Assembly (NCBI GenBank): GCA_024275165.1
Contig: JAJRZQ010000025.1
Location: 80,414 to 144,413, forward strand
Reading direction: 5' to 3'
DNA length: 64,000 bases
Source: a bacterium
Lineage (GTDB): Bacteria; SAR324; XYD2-FULL-50-16
A model generated the notes under the pieces. It was not told the origin of the DNA. It saw only the letters and a list, made by a program, of their open reading frames with translations, and ran no database searches. Below are positions 61,007 to 63,928 of the stretch, piece by piece. Position 1 is the stretch's first letter. The number at the start of each line of letters is the position of its first letter. A program made the position numbers and the translations under genes.

Positions 61007-61801
61007 ATGAAACAGGTAAAACATCATTTCTGCTGGGCGGAATGCGTATCCTTAAAGGCAACGGCAGCCAGGGATTTTTACACCCAACTCTTCGGCTGGA
61101 CTCATCAAGACAAAACCATGCACAATGGGCTGGATTATACCACTTTTTTACTTCAAGAAGAGCCCTGTAGCGCTTTGCATGCCATGCCCAATGAACTGGC
61201 GGCCCAAGGCGTGCCCAGTCACTGGGCCTATTTCATCTCTACCCCCGACTTAGAACAGAGCTTAGCCAAGGCCCGTGAGCTGGGCGCGGAAATCGTGCAA
61301 GAAGCGGCCCTGGTAGAGGGTTCGGGCCGCATTGGGGTGATTACCGATCCGACCGGGGTTTTACTGCATTTTTGGGAAGCGGGGAAAGAAAAGGGTTTTG
61401 GCCAGTTCCCCCCGGGCCAAGCCGGGGCCCCTTGCTGGTTTGAATTGATCAGTGGACAACCAGAAAAGGCAATCGAATTTTATACCGCTCTTTTTGGCTG
61501 GGAGGCGAGAGCGATGGAACTCCCTAATTTAAACTACTGGCTTTTTACGCAAGACAACATCCCCGTGGCGGGGTTGTTGGACGCTCCGGATTCTTGTAAG
61601 GAGATCCCCCCAACCTGGATGATTTATTTCAACTCCCAAAACTTAGACGCAGATACTGAAAAATCCAAAGCCTTAGGGGGGCAGGTTGTCGAGCCTCCGC
61701 AAACCATTTCTGTAGGAAGTTTCAGCCTGCTTGCCGACCCGGCCGGGGCGGTTTTTGCGCTGTTGTGGATGGACCCGAATTTTTCTTCTTCTTCAAACTA
61801 A
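61007..61801 (+). CDS. VOC-family protein with two glyoxalase-like domains
   Basis: A 264-residue protein of two vicinal-oxygen-chelate domains (about 5-120 and 135-255). Each opens alike: FCWAECVSLKATAARDFYTQ with LFGWTHQD, and CWFELISGQPEKAIEFYTAL with LFGWEARA. Each ends with a D-P-T/A-G-x-x-x-x-L strand. Possible lyase or resistance role; substrate unknown. The selenoprotein candidate starts 12 bases after its stop and may be cotranscribed. Confidence 0.82.
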   Translation: MKQVKHHFCWAECVSLKATAARDFYTQLFGWTHQDKTMHNGLDYTTFLLQEEPCSALHAMPNELAAQGVPSHWAYFISTPDLEQSLAKARELGAEIVQEAALVEGSGRIGVITDPTGVLLHFWEAGKEKGFGQFPPGQAGAPCWFELISGQPEKAIEFYTALFGWEARAMELPNLNYWLFTQDNIPVAGLLDAPDSCKEIPPTWMIYFNSQNLDADTEKSKALGGQVVEPPQTISVGSFSLLADPAGAVFALLWMDPNFSSSSN

Positions 61802-61813
61802 AGCGAGGCCTGG

Positions 61814-62422
61814 ATGCAAATCGAAATTTTTACCGACTTCATTTGACCTTTTTGCTATCTCAGTACCGGGCGTATTGAAGGCTTACGAAAAAAAACAGGG
61901 GCCACGCTGCTTTGGCGCTATTTCCCTCTGCACCCAGAGATACCTGAAGCAGGCCAAGATATAGCAAGTTATTTTCAAGTCGATTCAGCGCGAATGGAGA
62001 AAATTCATCAAGGAATTGCCAAACGATTAGAGCAAGAAGGCCTAGACTACGCCGCCAAACCAGGGGGAATTTATAACACGAGGCAAGCCCAAGAATTGGC
62101 CAAATGGATTGACTTGCGCTACCCCCAGCACGATGCCAGGAAAATTTTTTATCGCGCTTTTTTGGTGGAAAACCTAAACCTTGGGCAAACAGAATTACTG
62201 TTGGATTATGTGGCGACGCAGGGCCTCCCCCGATTTGAAGCAGCGGAGGTGCTGCAAAAAAAGAAAATGAAAGAGGCAGTGGACCAAGATTGGGGCAGAG
62301 CCATGTCAATGGGGGTGAGGTCCATCCCCAGTTTTTTGGCAAACCAAACTTTGATGGTCGGGGCCCAAAGTGAAGAAAAAATGCTGGAATTTTATCGTTA
62401 CGCCTCCAACAGGCCAAGCTAA
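61814..62422 (+). CDS. FrnE/DsbA-family thioredoxin-fold protein, probable selenoprotein with UxxC active site (UGA at 61844-61846)
   Basis: Read through one TGA, the frame codes for 202 residues of a FrnE-like DsbA-family oxidoreductase. The start MQIEIFTDFI-U-PFCYL lines up with the family start (K/M-I-E-I-x-S-D-F-V-C-P-W-C-Y), so the TGA occupies the first Cys of CxxC (residue 11); the second is Cys14. GVRSIPSFLANQTLMVGAQ near the end is the conserved cis-Pro loop and GAQ motif, and the helical insert lies between. The frame continues exactly across the TGA to TAA-free sequence up to 62422. A SECIS-like hairpin follows the TGA. Conventional calling would begin at 61994 and lose the active site. 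A nonsense mutation (TGC or TGT to TGA) is the alternative. Confidence 0.75.
61860..61878 (+). promoter_or_regulatory. Candidate bacterial SECIS element
   Basis: TCAGTAC (61860-61866) pairs with GTATTGA (61872-61878) over seven base pairs including one G-U, closing loop CGGGC. It starts 13 bases after the TGA and the loop lies 21 bases after it, within the distance range of bacterial SECIS hairpins, and the loop is G-rich as SelB recognition demands. Confidence 0.6.
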
Positions 62423-62623: not shown

Positions 62624-63027
62624 GGGGGTGCATTTGGATTTCGACTGGGAGAGGTGTCGGCTGAACAGCAAGCCCTGGTTGATCGAATGGCCAGGTAAAA
62701 ATTCGATCATTTTATAACTGCCAACAACGCAGAATACAGCCTGAACGAAGCAGCCATCGCTGCCTAGTTTTAGGCCTCCGGCCCCGGGGCAACCTCGGGC
62801 TGGGCGGAGGAGCGAGGAACGCCTAAATTACTCGCCACCTTTGAACAAAATATATGGGCTTACTTCCCTTATCGCCTTGCTGAGGGGAGAACATGAAAGA
62901 GGCTGGCCCGATGTGAGTCTTGTTTTCTAGCAACAGAATCGGGTAAGAAGGCAAGAAGAAAACTAAGCTTGTAGAACACTGCCTATTCCCTTTCAGGACG
63001 GGGGTTCGACTCCCCCCACCTCCACCA
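62624..63027 (+). ncRNA. ssrA: Transfer-messenger RNA (tmRNA)
   Basis: A 404-base tmRNA. The 5' GGGGGTG (62624-62630) pairs with CACCTCC before ACCA at the 3' end (one G-U), giving the acceptor stem. The 5' side has the conserved GGATTTCGACTGGG. The T arm is GGGGG-TTCGACT-CCCCC near 63000-63016, and CCA is encoded. The internal coding part begins at 62720 and gives ANNAEYSLNEAAIAA followed by TAG, a typical hydrophobic AxAA-ending proteolysis tag. It tags peptides from stalled ribosomes with SmpB. Confidence 0.92.
62720..62767 (+). other. tmRNA proteolysis-tag reading frame
   Basis: Fifteen codons from GCC 62720, reading ANNAEYSLNEAAIAA, then TAG at 62765-62767. The resume codon is inferred to be GCC or the following one; the AIAA end suits ClpXP-type recognition. 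Confidence 0.8.
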
Positions 63028-63113: not shown

Positions 63114-63527
63114 ATGAAATTCAGACCCCATCGAATGGTCTGGGTCCGAACGCATAAAAGTGGCCCATTTTACTACCGCTGCCTTATTCCAAAGTCAATA
63201 CAGCCCTACCTTCAAGGGAAATCTGAATTCAAGATTTCACTGTCAACAGGTTTGGAAAAACAAGCACATAGACTATCTTTAAAACTCCAAGAATATGCCA
63301 ATAAACTTTTTATAGCTGTTAATATTCGCCGTAAGTCCTTTTCTTTAAGCATTCTTAAAAATTTGCTGAAAGCGGAGTTAAAGAAAATTATTGCAGAACA
63401 GGAAGATAGGGGCTATGTTGTGACTAAAAAGATAGCCCTAAAGAATATTATTACATGTGGAAGAACAGGAACTATAGGAAAAAGACTAAAATTACTTAGT
63501 CGCCCCTTAAGAACCAGCAAAAGCTAA
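63114..63527 (+). pseudogene. Tyrosine integrase fragment (N-terminal arm) next to ssrA
   Basis: 137 residues. The start KFRPHRMVWVRTHKSGPFYY then RCLIPKSIQPYLQGKSEFKI resembles the N-terminal region of phage-type integrases of the DUF6538 group (R-G-x-x-Y-Y-x-R-R-x-I-P). The core-binding and catalytic domains (RHR-Y) are missing because the transposase fragment begins about residue 130; the end of this frame comes from the inserted sequence. It lies 86 bases after the tmRNA end, a classic attachment site for such elements, and has higher A/T content than its neighbours. Confidence 0.6.
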
Positions 63528-63928
63528 GCAAGCTGATCGGTTGGAGGAACGATTTGCTCCAGAAGCAATATCCAAATCCAGGCAAAAAGAAGGGCCAAGG
63601 CCCTCATGGCTTTCTTGAAGTTGAAGGCCGCCGCCGCCAACAGGACATTGATCTCGTCCCCAACCATACCTTTAAGAAAATTCCGCTTCATCCGGTGGTC
63701 CGATTTCAAATGCCCGATGATGGGCTCAATCGCCGCCCTGCGGCGGAAGCGTTTTCTCATTTTCTGTTTCTCATAAGCGGTGGCATCTTTTTTGGGAGGT
63801 CTTGGAATCAGGATGACCGTGTCTTTGATCCAGCTTTTGCCTCGATACCCCCTGTCGCAAACCGCCACTTCTGGTTGTAAAAATTTGAATCTGATCTGAC
63901 AGTACACCCTATTTTGAGCGTTGAGCAA
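63524..63928 (-). mobile_element. IS5-like transposase, C-terminal fragment
   Basis: 134 codons. VAVCDRGYRGKSW carries the second Asp of a DDE transposase and RRAAIEPIIGHLKSDHRMKR carries the Glu and the Y/R-type helix, followed by FLKGMVGDEINVLLAAAAFN, typical of IS5-family ends. The first Asp and N-terminus are absent: reading upstream, a TAG meets the frame within a few codons and unrelated structured DNA follows. It is inserted in, or joined to, the integrase frame. Confidence 0.7.

Follow-up and report, generated by a model that had tools for sequence, protein, structure and literature searches.

Introduction

Selenocysteine (Sec)-containing DsbA-like proteins with a UxxC motif have been known since 2005, when nine sequences assigned to COG2761 were reported from the Sargasso Sea (PMC1088965). 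A group named "DsbA 1", with 63 sequences, was later described from the Global Ocean Sampling set (PMC2398784), the DsbA-like selenoprotein was counted in 41 organisms by 2016 (PMC5029168), and a "DsbA-like protein form 1" is listed in 2026 (PMC13188914). FrnE proteins are cytoplasmic; in FrnE of Deinococcus radiodurans the active site is regenerated through a C-terminal CXXXXC motif, which is present in many FrnE proteins and absent from some (PMC8945050).

Here we describe a gene from a 64,000-nucleotide stretch of DNA of a SAR324 bacterium (the whole stretch analysed, hereafter the window), in which a TGA codon at the active site of a FrnE/DsbA-like protein is, judging from the sequence, almost certainly read as selenocysteine. 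The first-pass annotation of this gene stated correctly that DsbA-like UxxC selenoproteins had already been reported; the novelty that it implied was too high, given the Sec-containing, COG2761-type UxxC proteins published since 2005 (PMC1088965).

An in-frame TGA at the active site

The reading frame at 61814-62422 on the forward strand contains a single internal stop, the TGA at 61844-61846, and no frameshift. With the TGA read through, the N-terminus of the protein reads MQIEIFTDFI-U-PFCYLS, and U11 falls on the first Cys of the CPWC motif of D. radiodurans FrnE (5CNW), confirming the earlier alignment of the TGA with the first Cys of CxxC. The claim that family sequence lies on both sides of the TGA also holds, as the match to PF01323 (DSBA) spans residues 2-194 of the read-through protein (89.1 bits against a cut-off of 25.6, E 4e-25). 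The first 60 residues are conserved within the family and contain the first strand and the active site. Since the next in-frame start after the TGA is at 61994, just where truncation had been predicted, standard gene callers would drop all 60, active site included, and the annotation is corrected here. The features of the gene and its surroundings are as follows.

61007..61801, + strand: glyoxalase/VOC-domain gene, upstream, ending 12 nt before the ATG
61805..61808, + strand: GAGG, probable Shine-Dalgarno sequence as read from the sequence, 5 nt before the ATG
61814..62422, + strand: CDS, predicted Sec-containing FrnE/DsbA-like protein of 202 aa; ATG start, TAA stop, UGA as Sec at residue 11
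61844..61846, + strand: TGA codon for Sec11, the U of UPFC and attacking residue of CxxC; TGA at this column in 32 sequences, Cys in homologues elsewhere
61853..61855, + strand: TGC codon for Cys14, the C of UPFC and resolving residue; the sole Cys in the protein
61994..62422, + strand: truncated ORF of 142 aa expected from a standard gene caller, from the first in-frame start after the TGA
62327..62329, + strand: codon for Pro172 (SIPSF), invariant in the alignment; presumably the cis-proline facing the active site, the cis configuration being taken from family knowledge
62624-63027, + strand: tmRNA gene, tag peptide ANNAEYSLNEAAIAA, 200 nt downstream
63524-63928, - strand: 134-aa ORF near the window end that looks, by eye only, like part of an IS5-type transposase

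The 12-nt gap suggests that the glyoxalase/VOC gene may be co-transcribed with the Sec gene as an operon.

Family assignment and fold

By phmmer, FrnE of D. radiodurans (5CNW) matches residues 2-191 of the protein (E 5e-11). This full-length homology to a characterised FrnE, together with the C/U-P-W/F-C motif, places the protein in the FrnE subfamily, which we take to correspond to COG2761; the PF01323 match above cut-off and the UxxC (UPFC) at the active site make it a DsbA-like selenoprotein. The C-terminal CXXXXC of the subfamily, a feature that is not strictly defining, is absent, as Cys14 is the only Cys. An AlphaFold model built from a three-row alignment was of moderate confidence (pLDDT 67), and a fold search with this model returned FrnE as the best matches (E 4e-8), yet with a TM-score of 0.40 and an rmsd of 13.7, so that the fold supports the assignment weakly. 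No NCBIfam family scored above its cut-off in a search with the protein, a PADLOC search found nothing, and no signal peptide is evident in the N-terminus MQIEIFTDFIUPFC.

PF01323 also includes the HCCA isomerases and GST kappa, and both appear among the weaker fold matches, which raises the question of whether the protein is a selenoprotein that performs a different reaction, either of a GST-kappa/HCCA-isomerase-like kind or as a scavenger of peroxides or selenols. We consider this unlikely: UxxC still has a redox residue at each of the two positions, in contrast to the SPYS of the phylum's HCCA-like paralogues, and the best matches in both sequence and fold are FrnE oxidoreductases. A FrnE-type role in disulfide chemistry is the assignment that we carry forward.

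Selenocysteine machinery

Family searches of the genome from which the window comes (2.69 Mb, 98% complete) recovered the whole set of selA, selB, selC and selD, which the first-pass annotation had proposed to look for. The tRNA-Sec (selC) scores 69.9 bits, above the Rfam cut-off, and is called SeC(tca) by ARAGORN; SelB is 666 aa long and has the SelB-specific winged-helix domain (SelB-wing_3); SelA and SelD score 437 and 344 bits. Across the phylum, surveyed in 52 genomes of one class, SelB was found in 49. One genome that has the Sec gene gave no SelB match (G001, 73% complete), which is most simply explained by incompleteness of that genome.

The SelD gene of the same genome (L047, 1294-2445, - strand, contig C41) itself has one internal TGA, in the N-terminal motif TCGUAAK, a position at which SelD proteins often carry Sec; this SelD is thus probably a selenoprotein too. 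Scanning the window for further ORFs that read through a single TGA yielded five candidates with no evident selenoprotein motif.

A SECIS hairpin maintained by compensatory changes

The 7-bp hairpin with a G-rich loop that the first-pass annotation placed at SECIS distance is present, agrees with the bacterial SECIS model and shows covariation. Its parts are given below; the main clade is the group of Sec relatives described in the next section.

61860..61866, + strand: 5' arm of the SECIS upper stem, UCAGUAC, from pairing and covariation
61867..61871, + strand: SECIS apical loop, CGGGC; G at loop position 2, then G or U, in 28 main-clade sequences
61872..61878, + strand: 3' arm of the SECIS upper stem, GUAUUGA, from pairing and covariation

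The seven pairs include one G-U, the loop is 5 nt long and 20 nt from the TGA, and the folding energy is -8.4 kcal/mol. Published limits for bacterial SECIS elements are a loop of 3-9 nt, an upper stem of 4-16 bp, a distance of 16-37 nt from the UGA, a G in the first two loop positions and an MFE of at most -7.5 kcal/mol (PMC13188914). The hairpin lies within all of these, with its G at loop position 2. Against shuffled sequences its energy is unremarkable (z of -0.4 and -1.7 at two sizes of folding window), and because energy by itself is not significant, the case for the SECIS rests on covariation and on synonymous recoding.

In the 28 main-clade sequences the distance between the TGA and the hairpin is free of indels. 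Three stem pairs vary on both sides: pairs 18/34, 19/33 and 21/31 alternate between C-G, U-A and G-C, between A-U and G-C, and between U-A and C-G, respectively. Pairs 22/30 and 23/29 are invariant, and pair 20/32 is G-U, A-U or an unpaired U-U or U-C (unpaired in 11 of 27 sequences). Of the alignment cells in the stem 92.6% pair, whereas sliding the 3' arm lowers this to 24-44%, and in 500 column shuffles neither the pairing nor the covariation of the real alignment was ever attained. As the hairpin region is coding, we also ran a codon-aware control in which the peptides of these sequences were recoded synonymously 20,000 times; it gave a mean of 101 and a maximum of 123 paired cells out of 196 where 181 are observed, a pooled figure that is inflated by shared ancestry; for the window gene alone, all seven positions pair in 0.3% of recodings. 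The outer pairs are kept across distinct codon pairs (AGT..ATT, AAT..ATT, ATT..ATT, GTC..GTC and ATC..GCT), and all 28 sequences use CGT for the Arg encoded within the stem, although CGT makes up about one fifth of the Arg codons in these genes. Compensatory changes preserve the stem, and selection acts on the SECIS.

Any readthrough of the UGA would yield the full-length protein, and a suppressor tRNA that inserts Cys would even create an active CPFC site, so that one could imagine decoding as a residue other than Sec, by such a tRNA or by a code change to Trp. This is very improbable. The tRNA-Trp has the anticodon CCA, and TGA is otherwise a normal stop: of the 39 ORFs in the window that do not overlap and reach 200 aa or more, 10 end in it. 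A canonical tRNA-Sec is present with SelA, SelB and SelD, a general suppressor would have no need of a SECIS under selection, and Trp would be inactive at the position of the catalytic thiol. Decoding as selenocysteine remains the reading that we adopt below.

Conservation of the TGA and exchange with Cys

Relatives of the window gene occur in 24 other genomes of the 52 surveyed, in 16 other genera, at about 27-44% identity. In every one of them the only internal stop is a TGA aligned with that of the window gene, the surrounding residues being D-[FYI]-[VI]-U-P-[WF]-C. Seven further sequences have one TGA at this column, six from genomes outside the phylum and one (L040) from a MAG titled Acidobacteria bacterium NP936, which brings the total to 32 with the window gene, a count of sequences that share ancestry and not of independent events. 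The TGA has thus outlived extensive divergence between genera, which effectively excludes both an error and a pseudogene. Neither TGC or TGT at this codon nor scattered stops elsewhere, which had been named as grounds for rejecting a selenoprotein, were found among relatives in the Sec clade.

In homologues from other bacteria, plasmid-borne FrnE genes among them, the TGA column holds Cys, so that U and C alternate across the wider family, a point on which an alignment of FrnE homologues had been suggested as a check. No Cys-type orthologue was seen within the phylum, where the other PF01323 matches examined over their whole length proved HCCA-isomerase-like, with SPYS or STYS. A tree built from 48 proteins shows the main Sec clade (27 rows, support 100/99) to be free of Cys proteins. 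Four further Sec sequences lie in other parts of the tree, in the company of Cys proteins, and a minimum of three to four changes is required to explain the Sec/Cys label. The Cys homologues and these label changes represent the exchange between Sec and Cys that is characteristic of true selenoproteins.

A second set of Sec FrnE-like sequences (L034 and L058-L060; UPFCF/YI) has downstream hairpins of a different shape; their position apart from the main clade on the tree suggests that Sec and Cys have been exchanged more than once in this family. One relative (L033/L037; genome G026, contig C3, 273205-273790) is split into two frames a few bases apart, with TGA and SECIS intact, probably through a frameshift or an assembly error in that genome. 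Within the Sec clade the window protein itself forms a long branch, with 1.59 changes per column, and may therefore act on a different substrate from its relatives; near relatives have UPWC in place of its UPFC.

It is highly improbable that the TGA is a true stop, leaving a pseudogene or a protein that begins at 61994, even if the 142-aa ORF is what standard gene callers would give: the first 60 residues are conserved together with strand and active site, there is no second stop or frameshift, and all close relatives share the same architecture. An error of sequencing or assembly that turned the codon of an ordinary Cys-type FrnE into TGA, which is one base from TGC or TGT at a column where Cys is common elsewhere, has a negligible probability in view of 31 other sequences from independent assemblies, at about 24-44% identity, with TGA at the exact codon, and of the SECIS covariation that goes with the gene. 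An in-frame UGA inside a conserved coding region, Cys homologues at its column, the covarying SECIS and SelA, SelB, SelC (tRNA-Sec) and SelD in the same genome all point to a true selenoprotein, as first proposed.

Discussion

Our analysis makes it very probable that the gene encodes a cytoplasmic, thioredoxin-fold selenoprotein of the FrnE/DsbA-like kind. Translation would start at 61814, and at UGA 61844 the SECIS at 61860-61878 would recruit SelB-GTP-Sec-tRNA(Sec), leading to insertion of selenocysteine instead of termination. Sec11 would then act as the nucleophile that attacks a substrate disulfide, with Cys14 as the resolving thiol, and the U-P-F-C site would serve in disulfide reduction or isomerisation. 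Since the protein has no Cys besides Cys14, the resulting Sec11-Cys14 selenylsulfide would have to be reset by an outside reductant, for example thioredoxin or glutathione. A cytoplasmic location is suggested by the lack of an evident signal peptide and is in line with FrnE proteins (PMC8945050). Sec insertion itself, like the location, the direction of the redox reaction and the recycling partner, is deduced from sequence.

It is conceivable, and we offer it tentatively as somewhat doubtful, that a phylum-wide FrnE clade that is Sec without a Cys exception (28 sequences, from four families or fewer of one class and a few outside genomes), lacks C-terminal regenerating cysteines and has its selenylsulfide reset externally is a characteristic selenoenzyme of this lineage. 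The gene adds no new kind of recoding. It does offer a clean, divergent test case, with measurable selection on the SECIS and the complete Sec machinery in the lineage, and the set of Sec and Cys orthologues of FrnE could be used to measure what cytoplasmic disulfide exchange gains from Sec.

Among known systems, two relatives by fold are readily set apart. The HCCA-isomerase-like PF01323 paralogues found in the phylum (L036 and L038) share the fold family and a similar length, whereas they carry SPYS without a TGA where the window protein has UPFC, at 20-26% identity. The DsbG-like selenoproteins (NF041057, Rcas_1661 family) are likewise a UxxC thioredoxin-fold selenoprotein family, but the window protein is only a weak match (20.6 bits against a cut-off of 190) and is not a member. 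FrnE of D. radiodurans (DR_0659) resembles it in the position of CP(W/F)C, in a GAQ motif near the C-terminus and in having no evident signal peptide; it differs in having Cys where the window protein has Sec at the first motif position, in its length of about 250 aa against 202, and in the C-terminal CXXXXC that regenerates its active site (PMC8945050), which the window protein lacks. From the published DsbA-like selenoproteins we found no difference in kind: PF01323, UxxC with Sec first, a SECIS directly downstream of the UGA and widespread Cys homologues are common to both, the grouping being by domain, motif and COG and not by direct sequence comparison. The closest relatives forming an all-Sec clade, and the missing C-terminal CXXXXC, are modest additions to the known picture, and the window protein is a divergent addition to the DsbA-like selenoproteins published since 2005.
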